A stretch of 36,788 bases of DNA, taken from the NCBI GenBank assembly GCA_009698845.1, contig WLPI01000006.1:1-36788 (forward strand). Reading direction: 5' to 3'. The notes under the pieces are model-generated. The model saw only the letters and a program-made list of their open reading frames with translations, searched no databases and had not been told where the DNA came from. Positions 370 to 25,658 of this stretch are shown here, piece by piece; the stretch's first letter is position 1, and every line of letters starts with the position of its first letter. Position numbers and translations under genes: made by a program. Source of the DNA: Actinomycetota bacterium. GTDB taxonomy: Bacteria; Actinomycetota; Actinomycetes; Nanopelagicales; Nanopelagicaceae.

Positions 370-1137
370 TTATTTCCTCTTGAAGTTTGGCTTTCTCTTC
401 TCCTTAAATGCCAATCTGCCTTCATTGGCATCTTCTGTGGCAAATGCAATCACTTGAAGATCTCTCTCGTAGGCAATTGCTAAATCACGGCTCATGCTAA
501 ATGCCGCATTGAGATTGATCTTCGCACTTTCTGCTGCAATTGGTGCTCGATCTGCAACCATTCTTGCTATTTCAAGAGCGCGAGATTTAAGTTCCTCTGG
601 CTTAACACATTCGCTGATGAGTCCCCATGCAAGAGCTTTCTCTGCATCTATTGGCTCACCGGTCATAATCATCATGGCTGTGTGTGATGAACCGATTGCG
701 CCAGCGAGGAGCGCTGTCATTCCACCTCCACCAATCCATCCCAATTTGATTTCTGGTGCACCGAAGTTCGCGTTTGTTGAAGCTATGCGAATGTCGCATC
801 CCAAAGCCATCTCTAGCCCGCCACCAAGTGCCCATCCGTTTATCGCAGCGATTGCAGGTTTCTTTATAGACCTGACTGCTTCACAGTATCCAAAATGCGT
901 ACGCCAATCCCACGGTGTTTCATAAGAATCTAAATCTTTGATATCCGAACCTGCACAGAAAGCGCGTTCGCCTTCAGAGGTCAGAATTACAACCCTTACT
1001 TCATTATTGGAATTACAGGTTTCTACATATTCCCGAAGAAGTTTTGTCATTCCCCGAGTCATTGCATTTAATTTCTCGGGACGGTTGAGAGTAATAGTTG
1101 CTATGCCATCTTTGATTTCGAATAAAATCTCGCTCAT
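370..1137 (-). CDS. Enoyl-CoA hydratase/isomerase family protein (crotonase)
   Basis: A complete 255-residue crotonase-fold protein. The first oxyanion-hole segment is AFCAGSDI (about 59-66) and the second is GWALGGGLEMALGCD (101-115). Glu109 and Glu129 (in APEIKLG) occupy the positions of the two catalytic glutamates of rat mitochondrial enoyl-CoA hydratase, so hydratase chemistry is possible. The family also includes isomerases, dehydratases and beta-diketone hydrolases, and the substrate cannot be read from sequence. It starts 5 bases after the CoA-transferase stop with a purine-rich ribosome-binding stretch. It is therefore almost certainly co-translated in an operon that otherwise encodes sugar-acid oxidation. 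In that setting it may act on a CoA ester made by the neighbouring transferase, or cleave a diketo acid; both are inference. Confidence 0.93.
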   Translation of the reverse strand: MSEILFEIKDGIATITLNRPEKLNAMTRGMTKLLREYVETCNSNNEVRVVILTSEGERAFCAGSDIKDLDSYETPWDWRTHFGYCEAVRSIKKPAIAAINGWALGGGLEMALGCDIRIASTNANFGAPEIKLGWIGGGGMTALLAGAIGSSHTAMMIMTGEPIDAEKALAWGLISECVKPEELKSRALEIARMVADRAPIAAESAKINLNAAFSMSRDLAIAYERDLQVIAFATEDANEGRLAFKEKRKPNFKRK

Positions 1138-1142
1138 TTTCT

Positions 1143-2330
1143 CTACTTCCCCGCTACGTTGCCTGTTTTTAGGAGTGTGTCTATTTTTTCTTGTGAATAT
1201 CCCAAAGTCTTTAAGACTTCACTAGTGTCTTCTCCGATCAGTGGTGCACCTTTGGCAACACTGGCAGGAGATTTGGAAAATTTAAATGGGAATCCCGGTG
1301 CTTTTACATGACCTTCTGTTGGATGTTCGTATTCAACGAAAGTCTTGTTATGCGCAATTTGAGGATCGTTGACTAAATCCTTATAGCCATACACTTCGCC
1401 AGCCCAGATACCGTGCTCTCTAAAGATAACAAGCCATTCTTTCGCCGTTTTATTGAGTAAGCGTTCTTGGGTTTTTGCGAAAATCTCATCGCGGTGAGTC
1501 CACGAATCTTCTTCATCGTTATACGTTTCAAAGCTAGGTTCTCCGATAAGTTCTCCGAATTGCTTCAGCGATGGAAATGCGATTGCTATGTAATCTTCCT
1601 TGGTTTCAAAGACGCCATACGGTGCGCGAATATAAGAGTGAGCATGGGGTTGTTCCGAACGCACTTGTTCAATTTTGCCCACGGTATAAATTGAAATCTC
1701 TTGCATCTGAAGAGTGGTAATCACATCCAGCATGTTGATGCTGACTAACTGACCTTCTTTTGTTCGCTCTCTGTGCAGCAAAGCCGCAATTGTGGCTTCA
1801 CTTGCAGCAGCCGCCGTAACAGCATCGACTAAAAATTGTCCTGATGGCTTTGGGGGTTCACTTACGCGACCCGAAGAGAGCATCGCGCCGGAAAGTGCTT
1901 GCAACAACATGTCCTGACCTGGTCTATCGACATAAGGTCCACTCTCGCCATAACCAGAAATCGAGACGTAAATCAGATCCTTTTTCAGTTGAGAAAGTGT
2001 CTCGTAATCAACTCCTAAGCGCTTTGCTACACCTGGGCGATAGTTCTGCAAGAAAACATCACTGGAGGCCACTAAATCTCGCAAGACAGAGAGTCCTTCT
2101 TCGGATTTCAAATTAAGTGCAACTGATTTCTTATTTCTGTTAAGTGATAAGAATGAAACATTTATTTGATTGCCTTTAGCTCCTCCAGCAGATACATGTC
2201 TCTGCCATTCACCTGTAATTGGTTCGATTTTTATCACCTCGGCACCTAAATCACCGAGACGTTGGGCGGCAAATGGTCCTGCCATAGCAATACTGCAATC
2301 TAGGACTCTATAGCCGGTTAAAATTCCCAT
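1143..2330 (-). CDS. CoA-transferase family III (CaiB/BaiF type)
   Basis: A 395-residue class III CoA-transferase, the usual length for the formyl-CoA transferase / CaiB family. Family signatures are the N-terminal RVLDCSIAMAGPFAAQRLGD segment (8-27), LGAEVIKIEP (28-37), LNRNKKSVALNLK (63-75) and SISGYGESGPY (123-133). Asp169 in GQFLVDAVT falls at the number of the catalytic aspartate of formyl-CoA transferase, which forms the acyl-aspartyl anhydride. These cytoplasmic enzymes move CoA between carboxylic acids. The donor and acceptor are unknown here. A CoA-transferase is not part of the standard non-phosphorylative sugar pathways suggested by its neighbours, so it may activate an acid intermediate for the adjacent crotonase (inference). 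It starts 51 bases after the SDR stop. Confidence 0.93.
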   Translation of the reverse strand: MGILTGYRVLDCSIAMAGPFAAQRLGDLGAEVIKIEPITGEWQRHVSAGGAKGNQINVSFLSLNRNKKSVALNLKSEEGLSVLRDLVASSDVFLQNYRPGVAKRLGVDYETLSQLKKDLIYVSISGYGESGPYVDRPGQDMLLQALSGAMLSSGRVSEPPKPSGQFLVDAVTAAAASEATIAALLHRERTKEGQLVSINMLDVITTLQMQEISIYTVGKIEQVRSEQPHAHSYIRAPYGVFETKEDYIAIAFPSLKQFGELIGEPSFETYNDEEDSWTHRDEIFAKTQERLLNKTAKEWLVIFREHGIWAGEVYGYKDLVNDPQIAHNKTFVEYEHPTEGHVKAPGFPFKFSKSPASVAKGAPLIGEDTSEVLKTLGYSQEKIDTLLKTGNVAGK

Positions 2331-2381
2331 GTATCTACAACCAATCTGCCAGCAACGTTTGCGTCTCTGGCTAGTAAGGAC

Positions 2382-3149
2382 TTATTTGAAGAGCTGGATA
2401 CTGCTTCCACCATCGATTTTGAAATCTGCACCAGTAATGAACCCCAGCTCATCATTAATTAGGAAGTAGACAAGAGCTGCAACTTCTTCGGGTTTTCCTA
2501 AGCGTCGTACAGGGTGGAACTCCGCCCACTCTGCGGCCACATCTTCAGCTGTGCGTCCCATAATATCTTCGGCAACAATTTTTAGTAGCGGCGTGTTAAT
2601 TGAGCCAGGAGAAACACTGTTGCATCGGATGCCATCTAGCGCATGATCTACTGCAATTCCACGAGTGAGAGCTATAACTCCAGCTTTAGAAGCCGCATAG
2701 GCAGCTGTCGTTTTTTGATTCATATGTCCCAATACAGATGCAGTGTTAACAATTGATCCAGAACCATTTCTCTTAAAGATAGGAACTGCAAAAGAAGAAG
2801 AAATGAATTGTGCTGTCAAATTAACGCGAAGAGTGAATTCCCAATCTTCTAAAGATAATTTGTCGACTGTCCCGTATCGAGCAATTCCGACATTGTTGAA
2901 AACTCCATTTAGTCTAGGGAGTTCTTTCTCTGCAAACTTGTACGCATTCTCAATATCCTCAAATTTGGCGACATCGCAATGAACTGTCTTTATATTCTTT
3001 GACGACTTCTCAAGTTCAGCAAGCTCTTTATCCAATACGTCTGCTGCAATGACATTCCAGTTGCGTTCACTAAAGTATTTTGCAGTTTCGCCTCCGATTC
3101 CACGTGCTCCTCCGAAGATGAGAATGCCTTTATTTGAGTTATCTTTCAT
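2382..3149 (-). CDS. SDR-family oxidoreductase (classical)
   Basis: A 255-residue classical short-chain dehydrogenase. The Rossmann glycine motif GGARGIGG is at 13-20, an acidic Asp38 ends the second strand (IAADV), which favours NAD, and NNVGIA is at 85-90, a variant of the usual NNAG. The catalytic set is Ser138, Tyr151 and Lys155, with Asn110 in helix 4. The ATG overlaps the lactonase stop as ATGA, and AAGGAC upstream serves as the ribosome-binding site. Next to a lactonase and an enolase-superfamily dehydratase, it could oxidise the C4 hydroxyl of a 2-keto-3-deoxy acid, as in the L-fucose and L-rhamnose diketo-hydrolase routes, or be the first sugar dehydrogenase. The SDR at 9184 competes for either role. 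Confidence 0.93.
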   Translation of the reverse strand: MKDNSNKGILIFGGARGIGGETAKYFSERNWNVIAADVLDKELAELEKSSKNIKTVHCDVAKFEDIENAYKFAEKELPRLNGVFNNVGIARYGTVDKLSLEDWEFTLRVNLTAQFISSSFAVPIFKRNGSGSIVNTASVLGHMNQKTTAAYAASKAGVIALTRGIAVDHALDGIRCNSVSPGSINTPLLKIVAEDIMGRTAEDVAAEWAEFHPVRRLGKPEEVAALVYFLINDELGFITGADFKIDGGSSIQLFK

Positions 3150-4033
3150 TTGTCTGTCCTTTCGTATCGATTACTCTTGCTGCCCTTAAAAGAAGTACTG
3201 ACCTTAAAGAGTGATCCAGCAAGCGGTTCTTTGGCTAAAGCCTCTGAGTTCATGGCATAGCGGGCGGTTGTTATGAAGAGCTCAGACATATCTTTGCCTC
3301 CAAAGCAGCAACTTGTTACTTGCTTTACCGGAAGAGTAACCACATGAGTGAGCTCGCCGCTAGGGTCAAAGCGTCTTACTTCTCCGCCACCAAAGAACGC
3401 AACCCAAATTCCGCCATCTTCATCCGTAGTTAATCCATCAGGAATTTCTCCCGGTACATGAAACGAAATGAGAGGCCGACGGTTCTTTAGCTCTCCGCTT
3501 TGAAGATCACAATCGAAAATATCAACTCTTCCAGTTGGAGAGTCAATGAAATACATACTCTTCTGGTCTTTACTCCAGCCCATTCCATTTGCAATCGTCA
3601 GAACAGGCACTACTTCCTTGATACCTCTGGAATCCAAGCTGTATAGCGCTGCTACACCTGGCGTGAAATCAAATGCCATGGTTCCAACCCACATCCGCCC
3701 AGTGCTATCGCACTTGGCATCATTAGTTCGTATCGAAGCATCATCTGGTTCGATTGGTGCAAGTAAAGTATTTAGCTTGCCATCCCGAGACGCTACAAAA
3801 ACTCCATCTCTTGCAGCCACTATTAATTGCGAATCTTGATCCAAAATTACGGCGCTGACCTCTTGATCAAATTGAATTGTTTTTTCCGATAAATCTGATG
3901 GGGTAAACAGCTTTACTTGCTTATTTGTAATATCTACAAAATATAGCTCTTGCTTAACATCATCCCAGAAAGGACCCTCGCCAAGGTCACAATCCAATTC
4001 AACGGCGAGCTCAGCAGTAAGTACTGTAGGCAT
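3146..4033 (-). CDS. SMP-30/gluconolactonase/regucalcin-family sugar lactonase
   Basis: A 295-residue six-bladed beta-propeller lactonase of the SMP-30 family. The metal-binding residues can be placed: Glu19 in GEGPFW, Asn149 in ANGMGW and Asp199 in IPDGL. The conserved NDAKCDSTGRMWVGTM (104-119) strand is also present. Such enzymes hydrolyse the lactone formed by a sugar dehydrogenase to the open aldonic acid in the cytoplasm. It lies between the enolase-superfamily dehydratase (12-base gap) and an SDR (ATGA overlap), which supports a pathway of dehydrogenase, lactonase, dehydratase. No clear Shine-Dalgarno sequence precedes the ATG, so translation may be coupled to the gene before it. The sugar cannot be determined. 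Confidence 0.92.
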   Translation of the reverse strand: MPTVLTAELAVELDCDLGEGPFWDDVKQELYFVDITNKQVKLFTPSDLSEKTIQFDQEVSAVILDQDSQLIVAARDGVFVASRDGKLNTLLAPIEPDDASIRTNDAKCDSTGRMWVGTMAFDFTPGVAALYSLDSRGIKEVVPVLTIANGMGWSKDQKSMYFIDSPTGRVDIFDCDLQSGELKNRRPLISFHVPGEIPDGLTTDEDGGIWVAFFGGGEVRRFDPSGELTHVVTLPVKQVTSCCFGGKDMSELFITTARYAMNSEALAKEPLAGSLFKVSTSFKGSKSNRYERTDK

Positions 4034-4045
4034 CTACGAAATCAG

Positions 4046-5248
4046 TCACTTAGCCTTGGAAGTGCGGACGATTACTTCATCAGAAGAGCGAACCCACGAC
4101 TGTAATGTGATTCCGTGTCCGCTTGCATCAGAGATGTAGATTCTTCCATTTTCAATCTTTGGAATTCCATCAACGAAGTCCTTGTACCAAGTATTAACAA
4201 ATGCGCGAGCAGTCTCTTGCAAGAAACCATTTCGCTGTGAAAGAGAAAAATGCGTACTCGTTGCAAGTGCTACAGGTCCTGAGCAGTCGTGAGGTGCAAC
4301 TGGGACCGCAAATAGATCTGCAAGTGATGCAATCTTTCTAGATTCGGTGAGCCCACCAGTCCAGGAAATATCAATTGTTAGGTAATCTACGGCGCCTTTT
4401 TCTAATAGAGGAAGAATCTGTCGTCTTCCAATCGCGGTTTCACCCGTTGCTATCGGCACAGAAATCTCTGAGCGAAGCTTCGCCAACGCATCTACTGCAT
4501 CTGGGCGTAGTGGATCCTCAATCCAGAATGGCTGATACGGAGTGATTGCATCAATAATTCGCTTAGCTGTTGGTCGGTTCCAGAGAGCATGGAATTCAAT
4601 CATTAAATCCATGTCCATTCCGACTTCATCTCGAATCGCAGAAATAATCTTTACGCCAGCTTCTATCTCTTTCTGTGAAATAGAGTTTCCGAAAGATTTC
4701 TCTGCGGCCGGATCAAATGGCCAAATCTTCATACCTTCTATGCCACTGTCATAGAGTTCACGCGCTAGTTTTGCAGGAGTATTAAAGAATGCTTGTAGAT
4801 CTTCATACCCCTTCTCTTTGGACTCGGCAACGCCCCAATTCTTTGAATTCTGACTCGAAGTTTTTTTCATGTAAGAAGAGCCAGCACATGTATTGTAAAT
4901 CTTTACGGAATCTTGAAGCTTTCCACCTAAAGAATCTGCCATCGTCGCATTGATTGATTTGCCCCAAAGATCCCAAACTGCAACATCCAAGGCTCCTAAT
5001 GATCGAACTTCAATTCCGCCACCTTGATATCCAACATAGGGTGTTAATGCAAAATTCAAAGATTCAGGATTTATATTCGCACTGGCAAAAATCAGAGGCG
5101 CAGCAATCGTGTGGATGTACTCCTCTATTACTGTTTGACTAAAGAATGATTCCCCAAGGCCGACATTTCCTTTGTCGTCATGCACTTCCACCCATAGTGA
5201 AGAAGGGTGCGCCAACGGCCTAAAGGTTTCAATCTTCGTTATCTTCAT
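4046..5248 (-). CDS. Mandelate racemase/muconate lactonizing enzyme family protein, probable sugar-acid dehydratase
   Basis: About 400 residues of the enolase superfamily. The barrel carries MKIWPFD (about 173-179), a metal site of Glu218 (in MIEFHALWN), Glu244 (IEDP) and Glu270 (TGET), and the general acid/base His320 in APHDCSGP. His220 in the EFH motif resembles the second catalytic histidine of mannonate/galactonate-type dehydratases, so a sugar-acid dehydratase making a 2-keto-3-deoxy acid is the best call. The ATG at 5248 is chosen over an in-frame TTG at 5254 because AAAGG lies at a better distance. It is the first gene after the hairpin that follows the ABC binding-protein gene, and it is followed directly by the lactonase. 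Substrate possibilities include fuconate, rhamnonate, galactonate and gluconate. Confidence 0.9.
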   Translation of the reverse strand: MKITKIETFRPLAHPSSLWVEVHDDKGNVGLGESFFSQTVIEEYIHTIAAPLIFASANINPESLNFALTPYVGYQGGGIEVRSLGALDVAVWDLWGKSINATMADSLGGKLQDSVKIYNTCAGSSYMKKTSSQNSKNWGVAESKEKGYEDLQAFFNTPAKLARELYDSGIEGMKIWPFDPAAEKSFGNSISQKEIEAGVKIISAIRDEVGMDMDLMIEFHALWNRPTAKRIIDAITPYQPFWIEDPLRPDAVDALAKLRSEISVPIATGETAIGRRQILPLLEKGAVDYLTIDISWTGGLTESRKIASLADLFAVPVAPHDCSGPVALATSTHFSLSQRNGFLQETARAFVNTWYKDFVDGIPKIENGRIYISDASGHGITLQSWVRSSDEVIVRTSKAK

Positions 5249-5315
5249 TACCAAGCCTTTTCTCTAATAAAAATACAGGGGAACGCAAACCTTATTTACT
5301 AATTACTAAAAAGTG

Positions 5316-5369
5316 CCTGAGGAGAGTGGCGTTCTGACGCCATCAGAGTAAATCGCCACCCCCCTCAGG
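5316..5369 (-). terminator. Strong hairpin after the binding-protein gene (terminator or mRNA-stability element)
   Basis: Bases 5354-5369 and 5316-5331 are complementary over 16-base arms: CCTGAGG and GTGGCG pair perfectly, separated by a 3x3 mismatch. A small CTGA/TCAG hairpin sits in the loop. In the minus-strand transcript the hairpin comes 9 bases after the binding-protein stop and is followed by GCACTTTTT, so it resembles an intrinsic terminator. Because the downstream genes are in the same orientation and have no other obvious strong promoter, it may be a partial terminator or 3' stabiliser that raises binding-protein level relative to the enzymes. Confidence 0.75.
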
Positions 5370-5378
5370 ATTCCTTAA

Positions 5379-6407
5379 TTAAGCGAATACAGCCTCACGC
5401 TTCAAGATTGCATTGATGTTTGACGCATCAATTACAGCTGAACCTGTGTCGTATGAGAACGACTTGAAGCCTGGAGACATTTCCATCGCCAAGAGTGAAG
5501 ACGCAACCCATCCCTGTGCCCATGGGTTCTGATCCAATGTGAAGTCGATGTTTCCGGCCTTAATTCCCTGTAGTACAGGCTGAACAAGGTCGAAACCGCC
5601 GTTAGACAACTTCAGATTCTTGCGCTTCATAAGTGCACCGAAGAACTGGTGTGAGAACTCAGTTCCGATGTAACCAACAACGTCACCCTTTGCTAAACGT
5701 GCATCCATAATTGCTGATGCTTTAGCTTCATCGCTTGATGTCACCAAAACTTCAGTTGTATATGTTGTTCCGTTTGAGGCGTTGTATGCAGCTACACCTT
5801 GCTTTGCACCAGCAGCACGGTCTTCAAGAGCCGAGTTACCAGGAGCGAAGTTTCCGATAAGAATAACTCCAGAAGTTTTTCCGGTCTTCTTCTTAGCGTA
5901 TGTAGCACCTTGGATTCCAGCAATCTTTCCTGCTGGAACGAAATCTTGACCTACGAATGGGACGCTAAGGTCTTGATATCCCTTAGATCCAACGTTTGTA
6001 AGTACTACCTTGATTCCAAGACTTTGTGCCTTCTTAATGTTGGCATCAAATGCTTTGTCATCAATTCTTGTGAAGATCACTCCATTTGGCTTTGAAGCAA
6101 TCGCTGCAGCCTGAAGTTCAACTGTCTTCTGAATGTCTTGTCCTGTTGGACCAACATAGTTGACTTTCCAGCCCATTGATTTTCCGAATTCACGGAATCC
6201 TCGCTCTAGAGGAACGAAGAACGGGTTCAAATCGTGAATAACGCAAGTAACTTTCTTGCCACGTTGAATTGCTGCTGTCTTAGTAGCAGCCGCTGCAAAA
6301 GGTGTTCCGATTACAGATGAAGCACCTAGTAGAACAGCTGATGCGCCGCCTGCCTTTAGGAGATTGCGGCGGTTTAAACCACTCTCCTCTAATGTTTCCT
6401 TATCCAT
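5379..6407 (-). CDS. Sugar ABC transporter substrate-binding protein, Tat-exported (ribose/LacI-like type)
   Basis: A 342-residue periplasmic-binding-protein fold of the ribose/galactose-binding type. The N-terminus carries a twin-arginine signal (NRRNLLKAGG, 12-21) followed by a small hydrophobic stretch and FAAAA, so export by the Tat system is likely. There is no lipobox cysteine, which is notable for a protein that should stay near its transporter in a monoderm cell. The mature part begins VTCVIHDLNPFF and includes the PNGVIFTRIDD and GYIGTEFSHQFFGAL segments typical of the family. An AAGGAG ribosome-binding site precedes the ATG. It partners the permease (6477-7472) and the ATPase (7474-8253). 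The ligand is unknown, but the downstream enzymes suggest a sugar or sugar acid. Confidence 0.93.
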   Translation of the reverse strand: MDKETLEESGLNRRNLLKAGGASAVLLGASSVIGTPFAAAATKTAAIQRGKKVTCVIHDLNPFFVPLERGFREFGKSMGWKVNYVGPTGQDIQKTVELQAAAIASKPNGVIFTRIDDKAFDANIKKAQSLGIKVVLTNVGSKGYQDLSVPFVGQDFVPAGKIAGIQGATYAKKKTGKTSGVILIGNFAPGNSALEDRAAGAKQGVAAYNASNGTTYTTEVLVTSSDEAKASAIMDARLAKGDVVGYIGTEFSHQFFGALMKRKNLKLSNGGFDLVQPVLQGIKAGNIDFTLDQNPWAQGWVASSLLAMEMSPGFKSFSYDTGSAVIDASNINAILKREAVFA

Positions 6408-6476
6408 TTTTTCTCCTTAGTTAGGCCTGAGCTCTTTCAAACTAGGCTGGGTGTGTGATGGCGTCAGATCTATGTT

Positions 6477-7472
6477 TTACGTTCGAAGAGTCTTTCTCTT
6501 CTGTGCAACCAAAGTATTGATAACTACTGCTGCGAGGATTAGTAATCCGTTAGCAACAAAAGTCCAGTTTCCGTTTACGCCAACAAGCACAAGCACGTTG
6601 GTAATCAAGCCACCAACAATTGCTCCTAAAGTTGCTCCCAGAATTGTTCCAGAACCACCAAATAAGCTTGCTCCACCAACTGCGATGGCACCGACAATCA
6701 ATAGTTCCTGTCCCTGACCGGTGAGCGGATTGGAACTTCCTAACCAACCGACGAGCATGATGCCCGCCCATGTGGCCAAGAAACTTGAAAGCATGAAGGA
6801 TTGAATCTTCACTTTAGCTACGTTGATTCCGGCATTTTGAGCCGCAACTTTATTTCCACCAATTGCATATAGGTCGGAGCCAAACTTTGTCTTTGCCAAT
6901 ACAACTCCAACTATTGTGCATAGTGCGACCATCCAATACACCTGTGCAGAAATACCGAGGAAAGATCCGCCTACGAGTCCTGAAAAAGTTTTAGATTCTT
7001 TTGCGTAGATTGGAACTCCACCTGAAATCAGAAGTGTTGCTCCTCGCAGAGCGCCAAGTCCCGCCAGAGTTACTACGAATGATGGAATGTTGAGCCTGAC
7101 GCTGACGTAACCATTTAACCATCCAAGGAATACACCGAGTAATAAGGTGACAACGATCGAAGGAAGGATTGGCCAATCCATTTTCACTGAAAGCCAGGTG
7201 TACATCACGGCGCCGAGACCGTAAATGGAGCCAATTGATAAATCAATCTCTCCACAAATAACAACGAGTGACATACCTGCTGCACAAATCGCAACATATG
7301 AAACCTGCTGAAGAATAGTGTTTACGTTTGTTCCCACAGCAAAATTTGGTGTTAAGGACATCGCAACGATAACGACTCCAACAATTGCAACGACAACACC
7401 AAATTCCTCGGCTCGCAAAATTCGGCCAATTCTGCTCTCATGTTTATCTAAGCGTTTAGCTTTGCCCGACAT
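6477..7472 (-). CDS. Sugar ABC transporter permease (RbsC/FrcB type)
   Basis: A hydrophobic protein of about 331 residues with some eight to ten membrane segments, of the branched-chain/ribose permease family. The family signature GEIDLSIGSIYGLGAVM near residue 75 matches the (G/E)GIDLSVG pattern of RbsC, and LNIPSFVVTLAG and NPLTGQGQELLIVGAIAVGG segments follow. I chose the ATG at 7472, preceded by AAGGG at good spacing, over an in-frame GTG at 7481 that would overlap the ATPase gene. It forms the membrane channel with the ATPase encoded just upstream; presumably a homodimer. Confidence 0.93.
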   Translation of the reverse strand: MSGKAKRLDKHESRIGRILRAEEFGVVVAIVGVVIVAMSLTPNFAVGTNVNTILQQVSYVAICAAGMSLVVICGEIDLSIGSIYGLGAVMYTWLSVKMDWPILPSIVVTLLLGVFLGWLNGYVSVRLNIPSFVVTLAGLGALRGATLLISGGVPIYAKESKTFSGLVGGSFLGISAQVYWMVALCTIVGVVLAKTKFGSDLYAIGGNKVAAQNAGINVAKVKIQSFMLSSFLATWAGIMLVGWLGSSNPLTGQGQELLIVGAIAVGGASLFGGSGTILGATLGAIVGGLITNVLVLVGVNGNWTFVANGLLILAAVVINTLVAQKRKTLRT

Positions 7473-7473
7473 G

Positions 7474-8253
7474 CTATTCACCCTTCAATTCGGTTGATTG
7501 ACTCTGGAGGTTATGTTTAACAAAACTCTGATCGCCAACGATCATGCTGACTATCTCTTGTCTAGTGGTTTCCTTAGTGTTGCGAATTCCAGCAACTTGC
7601 CCAGCACGCATAACTACAATGCGATCTGAAACCGCCAAAACATGATCAATATTGTGGCTGATTATGACAATTCCTTTTCCTGCATCTCTGAGCTCTGTAA
7701 CGATTCGCAGAACGTTGGCTTGCTGTTCAGGTCCAAGTGCGGCAGTTGGCTCGTCTAACAATACAAAATCACTGCCTAGTCGAACCGCTCTCGCAATGGC
7801 GATGCATTGACGCTGTCCGCCAGAGAGTGATTCAACTTGCAACTTCGTAGAAGAGATTTTGATTTTAAGTTGATCCAACAACACTTTGGCTTCTTCGCGC
7901 ATCTTTGAAATTCTGACAAATCCGAATCTACGTAATTCATGACCCAAAAATACATTTCGTGCAACATCCATACTTCCAACAAGTGCTAAATCTTGATACA
8001 CAACGGAGATTCCATTTTCCACTGCATCTTGTGGTCTGTTAATTACTCGTACGCTTCCGTCGATGACGATCTGTCCGCTATCTGGTTTTGTTGCACCGCA
8101 GAGAATTCGAATCAAGGTTGACTTGCCAGCTCCGTTGTCGCCCATCAGAGCAACAACTTCTCCAGAATTGCATTCGAAGTCAACCGAATTCAGCGCCTGT
8201 ACTCCACCGTACCGCTTTGCTAAACCTTTGGCCTTGAGCGTTGTTGTCGTCAC
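7474..8253 (-). CDS. Sugar ABC transporter ATP-binding protein (single nucleotide-binding domain, FrcA-like)
   Basis: A 259-residue ABC ATPase. Walker A is GDNGAGKST (38-46), the Q-loop is Gln87, the signature is LSGGQRQ (143-149), Walker B is FVLLDEP (163-169) and the switch histidine is His200. It has one nucleotide-binding domain, unlike the fused double-domain RbsA/XylG proteins. It therefore probably works as a homodimer, as in the fructose importer FrcA. The start is GTG at 8253, one base overlapping the regulator stop (TAGTG), with GAGGAG as ribosome-binding site. It energises uptake through the permease and binding protein encoded downstream. Confidence 0.94.
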   Translation of the reverse strand: MTTTTLKAKGLAKRYGGVQALNSVDFECNSGEVVALMGDNGAGKSTLIRILCGATKPDSGQIVIDGSVRVINRPQDAVENGISVVYQDLALVGSMDVARNVFLGHELRRFGFVRISKMREEAKVLLDQLKIKISSTKLQVESLSGGQRQCIAIARAVRLGSDFVLLDEPTAALGPEQQANVLRIVTELRDAGKGIVIISHNIDHVLAVSDRIVVMRAGQVAGIRNTKETTRQEIVSMIVGDQSFVKHNLQSQSTELKGE

Positions 8254-9119
8254 TACATCTCCTCATTTTCTTCTTGGTTTTTACTGTTTGTTTCTGTAAC
8301 CATCTCAGCCGCAGCATCAATGAGCTTTCGGTGTAACGGATCTAACTGCGCTTGATTTCGAAGTACCTTAGCTAGAGGAAGATGTAGGTCGTCGCCATAC
8401 TTTTCTTGGCCGATCAACATAATTTGTCGCATGTATTCCTGCGCTGCCTCAGAATCTCTCGCTTCGATGGCCTCAACAACTTTGAGGTGTAGCGGAAGTC
8501 CAAGATTCGAAATTGTATGGTCAGTTAAGCTTCGAGTAATAGTTCCGAAAACTAAGTTCTTAATTGAGCTAAAGAGAATAAGCAAAACTGGATTCTGTGA
8601 AGCTTCTGCAATGCGCTCATGGAATTTCACATCTGCAAGTACGCTCTCATTTGGATCCGTTGTTGGTTGCATATGGTCATTGCAAAGCGCCCTCAGGACT
8701 TCAAGATCTTCATCGGTACGTCGGATTGCAGCTAATCCAGCAGTTGCGCATTCGATCATCAAACGTGCCTCAATGAGATCAGCTGGTGTAACCAATCCCT
8801 GTCGTGCTGCATTGACTACGCGAAATGGACCAGTCTTCGATTGGTCCTGAATGTAGGAACCACGACCAGGTTGAACTTTTATCAATCCTTGCCCTTCCAT
8901 GGAGCGAAGGACTTCACGCAACGTTTGTCGGCTCACGGAAAAGAGTGAGGCTAAATTTCTTTCGGATGGGAGGCGATCGCCAGGCTTAGCTTGAGCTGAG
9001 AAAATGAACTCTTCCAGAGCAGTTTGAAGTTCTCCACCACTTGGTGGAGTCAGCGATGTGCCAAGCACATCCTCAGAAACGAATCCGGAGGCTCCGGTAG
9101 TACTGGTCTGACCACTCAT
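8253..9119 (-). CDS. GntR-family transcriptional regulator, FadR/FCD subfamily
   Basis: A 288-residue regulator from the ATG at 9119. A winged helix-turn-helix occupies about 31-95 (PGDRLPSERNLASLFSVSR, then GRGSYIQ) and an all-helical FCD ligand domain follows. Candidate metal or ligand residues are Asp163, His167 and His211. The ATG at 9119 has AAGGA 7 bases upstream; an in-frame TTG at 9155 is more likely part of a promoter. An N-terminal tail of about 30 residues and a charged C-terminal tail are longer than usual. It heads the transporter-enzyme operon and is divergent from the SDR at 9184, so it probably senses a pathway acid and represses both sides. A matching operator lies at its own 5' end. 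Confidence 0.92.
   Translation of the reverse strand: MSGQTSTTGASGFVSEDVLGTSLTPPSGGELQTALEEFIFSAQAKPGDRLPSERNLASLFSVSRQTLREVLRSMEGQGLIKVQPGRGSYIQDQSKTGPFRVVNAARQGLVTPADLIEARLMIECATAGLAAIRRTDEDLEVLRALCNDHMQPTTDPNESVLADVKFHERIAEASQNPVLLILFSSIKNLVFGTITRSLTDHTISNLGLPLHLKVVEAIEARDSEAAQEYMRQIMLIGQEKYGDDLHLPLAKVLRNQAQLDPLHRKLIDAAAEMVTETNSKNQEENEEM
9104..9114. promoter_or_regulatory. Candidate FadR/FCD-type operator palindrome
   Basis: TGGTCTGACCA is a perfect palindrome around a central T. It fits the FadR-subfamily operator pattern TNGTNNNACNA. It lies in codons 2-6 of the GntR/FCD regulator itself, just downstream of the divergent promoter region, so autoregulation by a roadblock is plausible. 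Pattern match and location are seen; binding is inferred. Confidence 0.5.
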
Positions 9120-9183
9120 TCCGGTATCCTTCATCCCAACCCAGTTCCATGTCAAGGGTTTTCTCTAGATTTCGGAGGCCAAA

Positions 9184-20024: not shown

Positions 20025-20165
20025 CTACTTGCCCGCCTTACATTTTTCAGAGCAGTACTTCACGTTCTCCCAATCGCGAGCCCATTTCTTTCGCCACTCA
20101 AATGGACGATCGCAGCGAAGACAAATCTTCGGTGGGACTCCGTTCTTGGTTTTAGCTACAGCCAT
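20025..20165 (-). CDS. DUF2256-type zinc-ribbon microprotein
   Basis: A 46-residue basic protein of the DUF2256 type. The pattern is [19 protein letters not shown] followed by VKYCSEKC, giving two Cys-x2-Cys/Cys-x3-Cys pairs (Cys15, Cys18, Cys38, Cys42) that should bind zinc, with a conserved Arg/Trp-rich stretch between. The ATG at 20165 overlaps the last ten bases of the SDR gene in another frame, so translation is probably coupled to it. Length and motif match what I know of the family, whose function is undefined. Its co-occurrence with the SDR may only reflect compact packing. Confidence 0.85.
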
Positions 20166-20938
20166 GGCGGTGCATCGACAGGTTTATCCCAACTGTCGAT
20201 TGGTGCTTGTAGTGGATTATCAATCCAAAGGAATTCACCGTTGATGTTGGCTGATTCATCACTCACTAATTTCATAATCAGATCGGCAGCTTTCTTGGGA
20301 TCATCTCCCCCGGTCTTTTCAACCCAATCAACCCATGATTTGTAATCTACGCCGGCCTCGCCAAGTGCATCTGCCTTAGCGCTGATATCAGCCCACATTT
20401 CACTGCGAACATCGCCGGGGTGAATAACATTGGCAGTGACACCACTTCCGCTTATCTCAGCCGCAAGGTGGCGAGTGAATTGATTGAGTGCAACTTTTGC
20501 AGTGGCGTATGCGCTATTGAGTTTGCCTGGTTGATGAAGAGCTGCAGCAGAACTGAGATTGATAATGCGTCCCCACCGTGCATCTAACATTGCAGGCAAG
20601 AATGCACGCGATGTGTAATAGCAAGAGATGGCATCAATCATCATTGTTTCTAGCCACTGGTGTGGATTGCTATCTTTAATCAGAGCGATGGGTCCAAAGA
20701 TGCCTGCAGCATTGACAAGAATTTCTATATTGCCATGATCACGTTGAACTTGTTCGTGAAGGTCGTTGACGAATGCGAGATCGCTTATGTCGCCAGCAAT
20801 AGATGTGATGCGTTGATTGGTTTCATCTTTATTCGGTGTGCGAGAGACGGCGATTACCTGATGGCCAGCGCTGGCAAGGGCTAGTGCAATTTCGCGACCG
20901 ATTCCGCGTGATGCTCCGGTGACTAGGGCAAGTGACAT
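20156..20938 (-). CDS. SDR-family oxidoreductase, probable NADP-dependent
   Basis: A 260-residue classical SDR from the ATG at 20938. TGASRGIG is at 7-14, VNAAG at 75-79, and the catalytic set is Ser130, Tyr144 and Lys148. Arg33 after the second strand (VSRTP) suggests NADP(H). The frame is open further upstream, but the extra 46 residues would run through the divergent agmatinase start and lack family similarity. A TATCAT box six bases before this ATG supports a leaderless start. The C-terminal tail after the fold is long (about 30 residues, ending DAPPWL). The substrate is unknown. Confidence 0.9.
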
Positions 20939-20944
20939 GTGGTG

Positions 20945-20966
20945 ATGATAGTTCCGGCTATATGAT
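20945..20966. promoter_or_regulatory. Back-to-back leaderless -10 boxes of a divergent promoter
   Basis: On the minus strand TATCAT (20950-20945) is six bases from the SDR ATG at 20938. On the plus strand TATGAT (20961-20966) is six bases from the agmatinase ATG at 20973. Only 34 bases separate the two start codons, so each -35 region would overlap the other gene's start. Boxes and spacing are seen; promoter activity is inferred, and the -35 boxes are weak. Confidence 0.5.
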
Positions 20967-20972
20967 TTTGCC

Positions 20973-21971
20973 ATGGCTAACCACGGCAATATGTATGGCC
21001 CCGCATTCACATTCTTAGGTATTCCGGCATGCGATCTTGATGACCCATCAACATATAAGGGTGCAGATGTCATCATCGTGGGAGCTCCTATTGATAGCGG
21101 AACTTCTCATCGCTCGGGTGCGAAATTTGGGCCACAAGCAATCCGTGGTGGCGATTACTTGCCCCATGATGGGCAACGCCCACATCTTGCACTTCGTACA
21201 GATGGATTGAAAGATCTGAAAGTTTTTGATGCAGGTGATTTGCTCATGCCTGGTGGAGATTTGGTTGCATCTCTTGCCGTATTGCGCGAAGCAACAGAGA
21301 AGATTTCGCGAGCAGGTGCAATCGCTGTCGTGTTAGGCGGAGATCACTCCATCGCATCGGCAGATGTTGCAGGCATTGCAAATCATTTAGGTCACGGCAA
21401 AGTATCGATGATTCACTTTGATGCACACGCTGACACCGGTGAGGATCAATGGGGAGCGCTAGTCGGTCACGGAACTCCGATGCGTCGTCTTATTGATGAA
21501 GGTTATGTTCGCGGAGATCGCTTCTTGCAATTAGGGCTTCGTGGATATTGGCCAGATAGCAAAACTCTCGAGTGGATGCGCGATCAAGGAATGCGTTCGT
21601 ATGAGATGACGGAAATTCATCATCGTGGGCTTAAAGAAGTGCTCGATGAATCATTTGCAACGCTTACTAATGGGTGCGATGGCGTCTTCTTATCTGTAGA
21701 TATCGATGTTGTTGATCCAGGTATGGCCCCCGGTACAGGGACACCAGAACCAGGTGGGATGACTTCGCGAGAATTACTTGAAGCCGTTCGCCGGATTTGT
21801 CTGGAACTTCCAGTTGTTGGCATCGATGTTGTAGAAGTTGCGCCGCCATTTGATAGCGCGGACATCACGGCAATTTTGGCTAACCGCGTTGTGCTCGAGG
21901 CGTTAAGTGCAATTGCTAAGCGCCGTAACGGAACTGCTTATGACCCGAAGCAGAACATACTCGATCGCTAA
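20973..21971 (+). CDS. Agmatinase / ureohydrolase family protein
   Basis: A 332-residue ureohydrolase with the complete two-metal site: His125 in GGDHS, Asp150/His152/Asp154 in DAHAD, and Asp243/Asp245 in SVDIDVVDP. These proteins hydrolyse guanidino groups to urea with two manganese ions, as in agmatinase, guanidinobutyrase and relatives. The PGTGTPEPGG segment (253-262) and N-terminal extension favour the agmatinase-like branch over arginase, but the guanidino substrate cannot be read reliably. The gene starts from a leaderless-type promoter divergent from an SDR gene. No urease, putrescine or arginine-decarboxylase gene is nearby, so agmatine use is inferred from the family only. Confidence 0.92.
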   Translation: MANHGNMYGPAFTFLGIPACDLDDPSTYKGADVIIVGAPIDSGTSHRSGAKFGPQAIRGGDYLPHDGQRPHLALRTDGLKDLKVFDAGDLLMPGGDLVASLAVLREATEKISRAGAIAVVLGGDHSIASADVAGIANHLGHGKVSMIHFDAHADTGEDQWGALVGHGTPMRRLIDEGYVRGDRFLQLGLRGYWPDSKTLEWMRDQGMRSYEMTEIHHRGLKEVLDESFATLTNGCDGVFLSVDIDVVDPGMAPGTGTPEPGGMTSRELLEAVRRICLELPVVGIDVVEVAPPFDSADITAILANRVVLEALSAIAKRRNGTAYDPKQNILDR

Positions 21972-21992: not shown

Positions 21993-23165
21993 CTATTGGT
22001 ATTCACCAATTACTGTTTTATACATTCGCGAAAGAGCAAATTCGTGGTGTCCCCCACGTTCTGCCTTTGTCAGCTTCCCGTTTGCAACTTCAATGATTTC
22101 ATCGAAAATGCGATCTCCGACTTGAGCAAGAGTCTCAATTCCGTCGGCAATCGTGCCGGCATCTAGATCAATGAGATCTGGAATTGCAGAATACATTGGC
22201 GTATTTGTTGAAACTTTTATGGTCGGCATAATCGCAGAACCAGTTGGTGTTCCGCGACCAGATGTAAATACGACAACATTTATATGTCCTGCGCCGAATC
22301 CTGCAAGCTGTTCAATGTCATGACCTGGGGTATCCATAAAGTACAAACCTGGCGTCAATGGTCTTTCGCCAAATTCCAGTACTCCTGTAAGTGGCGCATT
22401 TCCAGCTTTCTTTGCTGCGCCTAAAGATTTTTCTTCCAGGGTAGAAAGTCCACCTTCGATATTTCCACGAGATGGCTGCGCACCGCGAATGTCGATTCCC
22501 TCGTAGTTAATCGATGCTTCATAACGAGAAACCATGGCAACAATTCGTTTTCCTACTTCAGGGTCAATCGCGCGGGCGGCGAGTAAATGTTCTGCTCCAA
22601 GAATTTCTGTTGTTTCACCTAGGACAGACGTTGCACCCAGTTCAACGAGACGATCACTAGCTACGCCGAGAGCTGGATTGGCAGTAATTCCCGAGAGAGC
22701 ATCAGAACCGCCGCACTCGAGTCCCAGAACGATTGCACTCCATGGCGCCTCTATGCGTTTTTGTGATTTTGCTTCAACAACATATTTATTGGCAACTACA
22801 AGTGCATCTGATTGCAATTTCTCAAGTGAGCCGATTTCAGGTAATGAAAGAACTGTAAAATTCTTAAGTCCTAACGCTTGCGCACCATCGATGATTGATT
22901 TCTCTTCGGCGCTTCCAATAATCAGAAAAACGACCGCGTAATTATTTGGATTTGATGCATACCCAGAGAGGGTAAATAGTATGCGCGTAAGATCGCTATC
23001 AATCTCGCCAGACCAATCGTGACTAATTGCCACGGCTCCGTCAGATGTGTCGGCAATTGTGCGAGCACTAGAAGCTAACGCAGAATGCAGCGGAAGAACT
23101 AGGACATTGTTACGCAGTCCCCAACGGCCGTCATCGCGTAAGTAAGCAAATAGCTTTTCGCTCAT
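21993..23165 (-). CDS. UxaA/GarD-family dehydratase subunit with intact C-terminal and degenerate N-terminal domain
   Basis: A 390-residue protein of the altronate/galactarate dehydratase family, similar in length to the large SuyB-type subunits. The C-terminal domain is intact: LGLECGGSDALSGITANPAL (147-166), GGLSTLEEKSLGAAKKAG and TSGRGTPTGSAIMPTIKVS (301-319). The N-terminal catalytic-type domain is eroded. Where family members show HQHGC and GLGCE, this protein has SHDWSGE (48-54) and IIGSAEE (82-88), losing both cysteines. The ATG at 23165, with AGGAG six bases upstream, is preferred to GTG at 23168. It overlaps the paralogue's stop by one base. It probably acts as a complex with the two preceding gene products. 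Confidence 0.9.
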   Translation of the reverse strand: MSEKLFAYLRDDGRWGLRNNVLVLPLHSALASSARTIADTSDGAVAISHDWSGEIDSDLTRILFTLSGYASNPNNYAVVFLIIGSAEEKSIIDGAQALGLKNFTVLSLPEIGSLEKLQSDALVVANKYVVEAKSQKRIEAPWSAIVLGLECGGSDALSGITANPALGVASDRLVELGATSVLGETTEILGAEHLLAARAIDPEVGKRIVAMVSRYEASINYEGIDIRGAQPSRGNIEGGLSTLEEKSLGAAKKAGNAPLTGVLEFGERPLTPGLYFMDTPGHDIEQLAGFGAGHINVVVFTSGRGTPTGSAIMPTIKVSTNTPMYSAIPDLIDLDAGTIADGIETLAQVGDRIFDEIIEVANGKLTKAERGGHHEFALSRMYKTVIGEYQ

Positions 23166-23983
23166 CACACGCTCCTGACAACTCGCGGTGCTCGGATTTC
23201 ACCACTTTTATTCTTCTCTGCAATAGTGTGAATTCCATTTGCAACTGATTCGATCAAAGCGGTGATATCTGCCTCGACCTGTGATTCTGCTATATCAAAA
23301 TCAGCGCGAATCGCCTGGTGCAGGACGCTCGAACTTGCGACATTGATAACTGGAAAAAGTGGGAATCCTGAAGGTGGCTGTGTTTCACTCGGAAAACTAA
23401 TTACGATGTGCGCTTTCTCTTGTGCTAAACGAGAGAAGGATTCGGCAGATGAAAATGGTGAATCTGAAATTATTACTGTGTGGCCAGCTGCTTCAAGAAG
23501 ACCTCTGAGATTCGTCATCCCCGGATAATCGCGACCATTATCAATTCCCACGCGAAGAGTTGTGATCTCTGCAGGAACTGGCACAAATGAAGTATTTAAC
23601 TCTCGTGCTGCTTTCACTCCAGCTGCAACGGTGCCTTCTACTCCACCACTTTCTTGAATGATTCTGTACTGAGTCGATTCATTGCGCTCAAGCAACTTCG
23701 CGGCAAGTTCCTGTCCTTGGATAGTTTCGCAACCAAGGCCAATAACAAGAGCTGAATTCACATTGGGATGGTCAGCTAACTGGATAAAGAAATTATCAAT
23801 ACCTGCAACGTCATCTCCGATTATCGCGCAACCGTGTTGATGGGCAAAAGTGACGGCCTCAATTTCGGTGGCAATGCGACGGGAAACATGAGTAGAACAA
23901 ATAACGGATGGAAGAATAAGTTGGTGATTGCGAATTCCACTGCCACGATTTCCGTGAGCGTATCCCTTGATAACGGTACTCAT
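23165..23983 (-). CDS. UxaA/GarD-family dehydratase subunit with intact N-terminal and shortened C-terminal domain
   Basis: A 272-residue paralogue of the next gene. Its N-terminal domain keeps the family signatures: GYAHGNRGSGIRNHQLILPS, then VICST (Cys29), AHQHGC (Cys52) and GLGCE (Cys85). After IQESGGVEGTVAAGVKAARE the C-terminal domain is degenerate. LRVGIDNGRDYPGMTNLRGL stands where the family has LGLQCGGSDxFSGITANPAL, and FPSETQPPSGFPLFPVINVA replaces the TTGRGSPTGxxxxPVIKVxxN segment, with roughly 90 residues missing between. It overlaps the SAF-domain gene by ATGA and the large paralogue by one base. The reciprocal losses suggest an obligate heteromer (inference). Confidence 0.88.
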   Translation of the reverse strand: MSTVIKGYAHGNRGSGIRNHQLILPSVICSTHVSRRIATEIEAVTFAHQHGCAIIGDDVAGIDNFFIQLADHPNVNSALVIGLGCETIQGQELAAKLLERNESTQYRIIQESGGVEGTVAAGVKAARELNTSFVPVPAEITTLRVGIDNGRDYPGMTNLRGLLEAAGHTVIISDSPFSSAESFSRLAQEKAHIVISFPSETQPPSGFPLFPVINVASSSVLHQAIRADFDIAESQVEADITALIESVANGIHTIAEKNKSGEIRAPRVVRSV

Positions 23984-24255
23984 GACTGCGCCGATGAAAG
24001 TCGATCGCCCAAGATATTGTGGACGTGAACATGCTCACCGATAGCAATAGGTGCAACTGCATGCCCCATGCGCTCACCGTATTTGATGACTCCGTCATTC
24101 TTTGAAATCACTTGGGTCGCAATCTTGTGGCCACGCGGAATCCTGTTTAAAACCTTAATGGAGATGTCATCTTGTTCGACAGTATCACCTATCTCAAGAT
24201 CGACTAGGCAGACGGCGATGTTATCGCGCGAATCTAGGATCAGTATTTTTCTCAT
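23980..24255 (-). CDS. SAF-domain small subunit of a UxaA/SuyA-type dehydratase or lyase
   Basis: A 91-residue stand-alone SAF domain, equal to the N-terminal domain of altronate/galactarate dehydratases and to SuyA of sulfolactate sulfo-lyase. Recognisable segments are DNIAVCLVDLEIGDTV (11-26), IPRGHKIATQVISKNDGVIK (39-58), YGERMGHAVAPIAIGEHVHV (59-78) and HNI. It begins 11 bases after the FAD-dehydrogenase gene and overlaps the 272-residue subunit gene by ATGA. As a separate polypeptide it must associate with the two large subunits to rebuild the active site. Confidence 0.93.
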   Translation of the reverse strand: MRKILILDSRDNIAVCLVDLEIGDTVEQDDISIKVLNRIPRGHKIATQVISKNDGVIKYGERMGHAVAPIAIGEHVHVHNILGDRLSSAQS

Positions 24256-24266
24256 GATGGCGCACT

Positions 24267-25658
24267 CTAGTGAAAGATTTTGCCGGGATTGAGAATCCCA
24301 TTTGGATCAAGTGCTGCCTTTATCGATCTCATCACTGCAACCGATGTCTCGCCTGCTTCTTCCATGAGAGAGTCAATCTTGCCAACACCAATTCCGTGCT
24401 CGCCGGTGCATGTTCCACCCATTGCAATAATCTCAGATGTTGTTTTATGTGTAAGGGCACGAATTTGATCTAACTCTTCAGGTTTTCCAGGATCGGTAAG
24501 AATAAAAGTGTGGAAGTTTCCATCAGCGACATGGCCGAGTATCGAGAATGGGAATCCTGAGTCCTTCAAGATATTTTCAGCAACCGTAACCGCATCGGCT
24601 AACCTGGAAAGTGGAACTGCTGCATCTGTACTGATGCCACGTCTTCCAGGATGAGCAGCGATACCCGCCCAATACGCATTGTGTCGGGCTTGCCATAACT
24701 TTCGTCGTTGACCTTCTTCGGTGGTCCACTCAAAGTTAGTTCCGCCAAATTCTGAAGTGATTTCTTGAACAACTTTTGCATCTTCTTCTACGCCGCGAGG
24801 AGATCCATGGAATTCAAAGAGAAGTGTTGGGGCTTCTTCGAGGCTTAATCCATCGTGGGCATTAACATTCTTAATTGATTGCGCATCAAGAAATTCGCAG
24901 CGTGCAATAGCCACACCTGATCGCACAATCGCAATAGCAGCTTGCACGCCATCTGAAAGTGTTGGGAAGCGAGAGACCGCAGCAGCCATCTTCTCTGGGA
25001 TACCAAATAGGCGCAGAGTAATTTCAGTGACAACTGCGAGAGTTCCTTCGGATCCCACGATTAAGCGCGCTAAGTCATATCCTGCAGATAACTTACGAGT
25101 CTCGCGACCTGCATGAATTACTGTGCCATCGGCCAATACTGCAGTGAGCTTTAGTACATTCTCACGCATAGATCCGTAGCGCACTGTGGTGGTTCCAGCA
25201 GCGCCAGTTGAAGTCATTCCACCAATAGTTGCATCTGCACCAGGATCTACCGAGAAGAACAAACCGTCATTAGCTAACTTCTTGTTAAGTGCAACGCGCT
25301 TCACGCCTGCCTGCACAGTGACTGTTAAATCATCTGGAGAAATTTTGAGAATCGAATCCATCTCACTGAGGTCGAGTGAGATGCCACCAAAGAGAGGCAA
25401 AACATGGCCTTCAAGTGATGAACCCACACCGAAAGCAACCACAGGGATTTTCTCTGCGTTGCAGTATGCAAGAACTTTCGAGACTTCTTCGGTGGAATGA
25501 ACCATGACAACTGCAGATGGGCGAATAGGTGGAAATGCGGATTCATCGCGACCATGAGCATCGAGAACAGATTCATTTTGAGAGAGACGACCATCGACAA
25601 GAAGTGAGAGTGCTTTCACTTGCACATCAGTGAGATCAACACGTTGTGCAAATGCCAT
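24267..25658 (-). CDS. FAD-linked D-2-hydroxyacid (D-lactate) dehydrogenase, LDHD/GlcD type
   Basis: A 463-residue flavoprotein. The FAD-binding-4 domain shows PVVAFGVGSSLEGHVLP (72-88), VDPGADATIGGMTSTGAAGT (137-156), RYGSMRENVLK and GSEGTLAVVTEITLR. The C-terminal FAD-oxidase domain carries GHVADGNFH (375-383) and GTCTGEHGIG (415-424), with His376, His383 and His421 as likely active-site or metal residues. The order and wording of motifs resemble mitochondrial LDHD more than glycolate oxidase GlcD. It probably oxidises a D-2-hydroxy acid and feeds electrons to a quinone or flavoprotein. It is the first gene of a four-gene operon with the UxaA-family subunits. It starts 37 bases past tRNA-Glu and has no good ribosome-binding site. 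Confidence 0.92.
   Translation of the reverse strand: MAFAQRVDLTDVQVKALSLLVDGRLSQNESVLDAHGRDESAFPPIRPSAVVMVHSTEEVSKVLAYCNAEKIPVVAFGVGSSLEGHVLPLFGGISLDLSEMDSILKISPDDLTVTVQAGVKRVALNKKLANDGLFFSVDPGADATIGGMTSTGAAGTTTVRYGSMRENVLKLTAVLADGTVIHAGRETRKLSAGYDLARLIVGSEGTLAVVTEITLRLFGIPEKMAAAVSRFPTLSDGVQAAIAIVRSGVAIARCEFLDAQSIKNVNAHDGLSLEEAPTLLFEFHGSPRGVEEDAKVVQEITSEFGGTNFEWTTEEGQRRKLWQARHNAYWAGIAAHPGRRGISTDAAVPLSRLADAVTVAENILKDSGFPFSILGHVADGNFHTFILTDPGKPEELDQIRALTHKTTSEIIAMGGTCTGEHGIGVGKIDSLMEEAGETSVAVMRSIKAALDPNGILNPGKIFH

Follow-up and report, generated by a model that had tools for sequence, protein, structure and literature searches.

Background

The UxaA/GarD superfamily includes the D-altronate and galactarate dehydratases, known so far as single chains that carry four cysteines and the domains PF08666, PF04295 and PF20629. 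Watanabe et al. 2019 (PMC6336799) reported that four cysteines are conserved throughout the superfamily, with SuyAB as the exception. For D-arabinonate dehydratase, iron EPR signals and Cys-to-Ser mutants led to the proposal that Cys134, Cys173, Cys208 and Cys276 form the iron site (PMC6336799). This four-cysteine site is still a proposal, drawn from EPR, mutants and conservation rather than from a structure.

Several multi-gene forms are also related to these enzymes. A heteromeric L-fuconate dehydratase has been inferred in Paraburkholderia mimosarum (PMC6336799). At loci of Metabacillus, Priestia and E. albertii, a free SAF gene lies beside a large-subunit gene; in the two-gene forms read here, the single large subunit carries all four cysteines (pattern CCCC) and there is no second paralogue. 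The (R)-sulfolactate sulfo-lyase SuyAB combines a SAF subunit with one large subunit, SuyB, which lacks the first three cysteines (C1-C3), has lost several C-domain invariants, forms its own clade and has no second large-subunit partner.

Here we describe a three-gene module found in a 36,788-nt stretch of DNA (the window) from a freshwater actinobacterium of the Nanopelagicaceae (acI). This module has all three UxaA/GarD domains and, like the two-gene forms, a free SAF gene, but its domains are spread over three chains and its cysteines are divided 3 + 1 between two paralogues. No description of this arrangement was found in a literature search covering open-licence papers.

Gene layout and domain content

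The three genes lie on the minus strand, at the positions given in an earlier sequence-only reading of this DNA. They encode a 91-aa SAF (beta-clip) subunit (23980..24255), the paralogue M272, here also called the B subunit (23165..23983), and the paralogue L390, or A subunit (21993..23168), which is 390 or 391 aa long depending on whether it starts at the ATG at 23165 or the GTG at 23168. The SAF and M272 genes share an ATGA overlap, and the M272 and L390 genes overlap in GTGTGATGAGC by 4 nt with the GTG start or 1 nt with the ATG start. Since overlapping gene layouts are enriched among heteromeric complexes (PMC10666635), these overlaps support SAF, M272 and L390 as putative subunits of one complex. 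A gene for a GlcD-like FAD-linked 2-hydroxyacid oxidase (24267..25658, minus strand) lies 11 nt upstream of the SAF gene and probably belongs to the same transcription unit in the window genome; among relatives it is an inconstant neighbour of the module. On the other side of the module, an SDR gene (20156-21076, minus strand) and an agmatinase-family gene (20973-21971, plus strand) diverge, and their listed ORFs overlap; the true start of the SDR is probably an internal Met near residue 47 (MSLALVTG), and with this start the two genes no longer overlap.

The free SAF domain described by the sequence-only reading was borne out by a Pfam SAF match over the cut-off (28 bits); moreover, the protein matched the solved UxaA N-terminal domain 3k3s (phmmer E 1.5e-15), and it represents the equivalent of the UxaA/GarD N-terminal domain and of SuyA. 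L390 matched GD_AH_C (311 bits) and, weakly, GD_AH_second (49 bits), both over the cut-off, as well as GarD 6u7l (phmmer E 6.5e-60). M272 matched GD_AH_second over the cut-off (101 bits) and gave no Pfam match to GD_AH_C; together with the loss of most of the C-domain signature, this agrees with the earlier description of its C-terminal domain as shortened and degenerate. The superfamily domain set of SAF, GD_AH_second and GD_AH_C is therefore complete across the three proteins, and M272 and L390 are the only two GD_AH_second matches in their own genome. Scores against TIGR03248, the galactarate dehydratase GarD equivalog, did not reach the cut-off of 730.85 bits for L390 (222), M272 (23) or SAF (33).

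Division of conserved residues between the paralogues

M272 and L390 were aligned with UxaA, GarD and the two-gene relatives, a residue mapping that had been suggested along with the sequence-only reading. Canonical enzymes share four cysteines, C1 (P-T-x-x-C), C2 (HxxGC), C3 (GLGCE) and C4 (ECGGSD), at positions 144, 179, 215 and 288 in GarD numbering; from their spacing and conservation, we read these columns as probably the four cysteines of Watanabe et al. At the C1-C4 columns, M272 has C29, C52, C85 and Asn149, and L390 has Ala30, a gap, Ser86 and Cys152. C1-C3 are thus found on M272 (pattern CCC-) and C4 on L390 (pattern ---C), and the pair carries all four cysteines while neither protein does alone. 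The motifs HQHGC and GLGCE in M272 and SHDWSGE, IIGSAEE and ECGGSDALSGITANPAL in L390 are present as previously quoted; C29 of M272 (SVICS), which also belongs to the set, had been missed.

The division extends beyond the cysteines. Among 68 positions invariant in canonical enzymes (threshold at least 92%), A-type proteins have lost exactly four in all three lineages analysed (actinobacteria, Halobacteria and Alicyclobacillales), namely C1, C2, C3 and a Gln that aligns with Gln110 of M272, and these four residues are kept in 100% of B-type sequences. In B-type proteins, by comparison, C4 is missing from every lineage together with some 26 positions of the C-domain, and A-types keep these positions with one exception, a Pro in actinobacteria. 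The losses are unequal, as in every lineage A-types lack only C1-C3 and the Gln while M272-types lack most of the C-domain signature; L390, like UxaA/GarD, keeps this signature whole. A single one of the 68 invariants is missing from both partners, and this double loss occurs in one lineage. Observed against expected double losses were 1 and 6.6 in actinobacteria (Fisher p = 1.3e-4), 0 and 2.6 in Halobacteria (p = 0.025) and 0 and 3.8 in Alicyclobacillales (p = 0.0016), where the p-values are guides only, as columns were treated as independent and losses cluster by domain. The reciprocal cysteine pattern is not due to chance: it is invariant over about 75 loci, and the losses avoid each other.

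Distribution across genomes

In an order-level survey of 201 sampled genomes, 36 carried a clear M272 homologue. The gene order SAF-M272-L390, for which the sequence-only reading had suggested a genome search, was found in 29 of 29 order loci examined. A wider scan, which used one genome per species together with plasmid and whole-genome loci, identified the CCC- and ---C pair with SAF in Acidimicrobiia and Thermoleophilia, in Alicyclobacillus, in many Halobacteria and in one Terrabacteria MAG (ANGP1). The roughly 75 loci mentioned above come from Nanopelagicaceae, Acidimicrobiia/Thermoleophilia, Halobacteria and Alicyclobacillales. The order is SAF-B-A in actinobacteria and ANGP1 and A-SAF-B in Halobacteria and Alicyclobacillales, and the B subunit is shortest in actinobacteria, at about 270 aa, compared to 311 aa in Alicyclobacillales, 334 in ANGP1 and about 365 in Halobacteria. 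Wherever a CCC- locus is intact, a ---C partner lies next to it, and relatives with a single large subunit are CCCC except for the SuyB clade. The haloarchaeal loci correspond to runs of three genes annotated as 'UxaA family hydrolase'; these show the same reciprocal cysteine division with SAF, but differ from the actinobacterial module in gene order, in their longer B subunit and in a separate A clade. No description of these haloarchaeal runs was found in the open-licence papers searched. In a phage collection, only distant, partial matches to M272 were found.

A second survey of Halobacteria and Alicyclobacillales was queried by the C-domain family to avoid the bias of an M272 search. At each of the A-type loci listed, in 14 Halobacteria and 11 Alicyclobacillales genomes, a B-type adjoined the A-type, and canonical loci were CCCC in 19 of 19. 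The ---C large subunits without a B-type were SuyB-like only, with Arg at the C2 column; SuyB-like sequences were recognised by hpsN/hpsO and a sulfate exporter beside their relatives. Three loci (L093, L095 and L182) have A-types with Arg at the C2 column and a B-type adjoining; the locus tally enters L093 and L095, and L182 in the second set, as 'B plus SUY'. The tally also enters L142 as A+B; this locus, with UxaA-family motifs in three frames, is an apparent exception that probably reflects either a frameshift in a canonical gene or a mistake in the assembly. Locus L137 showed no C-domain motif within its 1887 bases. Four haloarchaeal pairs of SAF and a large subunit (L184 to L187) have the pattern YRGC, lack a B-type and group weakly with SuyB; they could possibly represent an archaeal sulfo-lyase or another lyase.

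Fold and selection

The AF2 model of M272 (pLDDT 93, pTM 0.90) aligned with GarD 6u7l over 239 residues (VIA-align Z 19.5), from which M272 is predicted to adopt the full GarD-like fold of two domains, with its C-domain trimmed. The L390 model (pLDDT 90.6) likewise resembles 6u7l (Foldseek E 5e-29). Residues 221-250 of L390 (PSRGN-EGG-EEKSLG) are strongly conserved and were modelled at a pLDDT of only about 50-68; this loop is perhaps ordered only by a partner in the complex.

In all 36 clear M272 homologues of the order, the reading frame stays open for 250 codons or more. Against near kin, dN/dS was 0.08-0.105 for M272, 0.04 for L390 and 0.06-0.08 for SAF, and M272 diverges faster than L390.

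A candidate composite active site

Taken together, these observations are best accounted for if SAF, M272 and L390 are obligate partners in a single iron-dependent aldonate dehydratase of the UxaA/GarD superfamily, a hetero-oligomer whose one iron site is composite, a reading to which we assign a probability of about 0.77. Canonical enzymes would be homodimers in which the metal site draws on the second domain of one protomer and on its partner's C-terminal domain. Once the gene was duplicated, the cysteine side would have been retained by one protomer and the C-domain side by the other; in the resulting obligate heterodimer, one site would be composite, built by the M272 second domain and the L390 C-domain, and the other would be dead, with SAF as the third subunit. 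A site spanning two chains in the canonical homodimers is needed here, because a within-protomer site followed by reciprocal loss would leave no complete site. In the GarD paper, the second domain is reportedly the dimer interface with the metal in the C-terminal domain, which fits a two-chain site. Moreover, as the same split is seen in freshwater bacteria, acidophilic bacilli and halophilic archaea, M272 and L390 probably share one active site. The sequence-only reading had suggested a duplicated dehydratase whose copies specialised into complementary halves of a heteromeric enzyme; strict co-occurrence, reciprocal cysteines, purifying selection and probable independent origins strongly favour this specialisation at the level of comparative sequence, but the term 'halves' does not hold, as M272 is modelled with a complete two-domain fold.

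It is unlikely, by comparison, that L390 and SAF alone represent a complete SuyAB-like two-subunit lyase with changed chemistry, with M272 as a separate enzyme or hanger-on. SuyB has likewise lost C1-C3 while keeping C4 and needs no partner other than SAF, which shows that activity of a ---C large subunit without an M272-like protein is possible in principle. However, L390-types keep all the C-domain invariants that SuyB has lost (D419, R440, G417 and G478 in GarD numbering) and fall outside the SuyB group, with L390 itself in the actinobacterial A clade; SuyAB membership of L390 was rejected by both tree and residues. Two paralogous large subunits are present at every module locus, compared to one in SuyAB, and outside SuyB no A-type without a B-type was seen among the loci surveyed. 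In addition, the M272 cysteines are kept under purifying selection, and no sulfonate genes were seen adjoining the module.

We consider it equally improbable that M272 is an accessory subunit for iron loading or protection, or for regulation, with the active site wholly on L390 and SAF, even though M272 has kept the cysteine side alone, with nearly all of the substrate-domain signature gone, and its faster divergence also counts for an accessory role. All four cysteines are located in one fold in the canonical homologue, so that one shared site is the simplest reading, and the exact reciprocity, including a non-cysteine Gln, and the probable repeated origin are a better fit to a shared site as well. 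Although its C-domain is shorter by about 120 residues, M272 is almost certainly not a decaying duplicate, as this was refuted by intact frames, constant gene order, low dN/dS, model confidence and the invariance of its three cysteines and Gln across phyla, so that the pseudogene check in close relatives proposed with the sequence-only reading came out against decay.

Origins of the split

Origins were analysed with a C-domain alignment from which the C4 column was removed; a tree of the second domain alone was too short to resolve them. In the C-domain tree, halophilic, Alicyclobacillales and actinobacterial A-types formed three supported groups among canonical sequences, with the halophilic group apart. 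With denser sampling, a single clade of all A-types was rejected (p-AU 0.020), while it had not been rejected with a sparser first sample (p = 0.07-0.08). A grouping of actinobacterial and halophilic A-types was also rejected (p-AU 0.019), but a grouping of actinobacterial and Alicyclobacillales A-types was not (p = 0.115). Therefore, it is likely, though not proven, that the split arose at least twice, and the number of origins is given as two or more rather than three. Slightly better than even, in our judgement, are the chances of the fuller scenario, in which an iron dehydratase homodimer with cross-interface sites turned at least twice, once in actinobacteria/bacilli and once in haloarchaea, into an obligate heterodimer whose two metal sites are one composite and one dead. 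Each time, one copy would have lost the same four residues, and its partner the C-domain site.

Pathway context and substrate

Next to the module, about a dozen acI genomes carry convergently oriented genes that encode glucuronate isomerase (uxaC) and a fructuronate/tagaturonate reductase-like protein. Five of 14 genomes checked have UxaC and no UxuA match, and all five hold the module; in the complete IMCC26077 genome, the single GD_AH_C match is the A subunit. This gene context suggests that D-altronate is the likely substrate in acI relatives with uxaC and the reductase beside the module. Genes for glucuronate interconversion have also been noted in acI tribe C1 (PMC5301498). A conserved protein of about 350 aa (L051:6946-8052, minus strand, and kin) adjoins uxaC in 12 triplet loci and has no Pfam match at 1e-10 and no NCBIfam match at 1e-8.

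UxaC was found neither in the window genome, the assembly of which is 80% complete, nor in its near kin G042, and neighbours of the module elsewhere include LldD-like dehydrogenase and rhamnulokinase-like genes; substrates may therefore vary, and another aldonate is a possible substrate in the window genome. Overall, an altronate or similar aldonate dehydratase appears to be the best explanation of module function. Separately, the window contains a sugar-acid island (370-9155, minus strand) that encodes an enoyl-CoA hydratase family protein, a CoA-transferase III, an SDR, an SMP-30 lactonase, an MR_MLE dehydratase-like protein (enolase superfamily), a sugar ABC transporter and a GntR/FCD regulator. 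The MR_MLE protein represents a second, unrelated candidate aldonate dehydratase in the window.

Implications

The split suggests that the unsolved UxaA/GarD iron site lies between the second and the third domain, which probably belong to different chains, and the split offers a natural dissection of this site. If its repeated origin is true, it would show cleanly how the two copies of a duplicated enzyme can undergo complementary loss. For the abundant freshwater actinobacteria, haloarchaea and Alicyclobacillales, pairs of 'UxaA family hydrolase' genes should be annotated as subunits of one enzyme; with the correct subunit reading, hexuronate and aldonate pathways in these groups would be annotated correctly.
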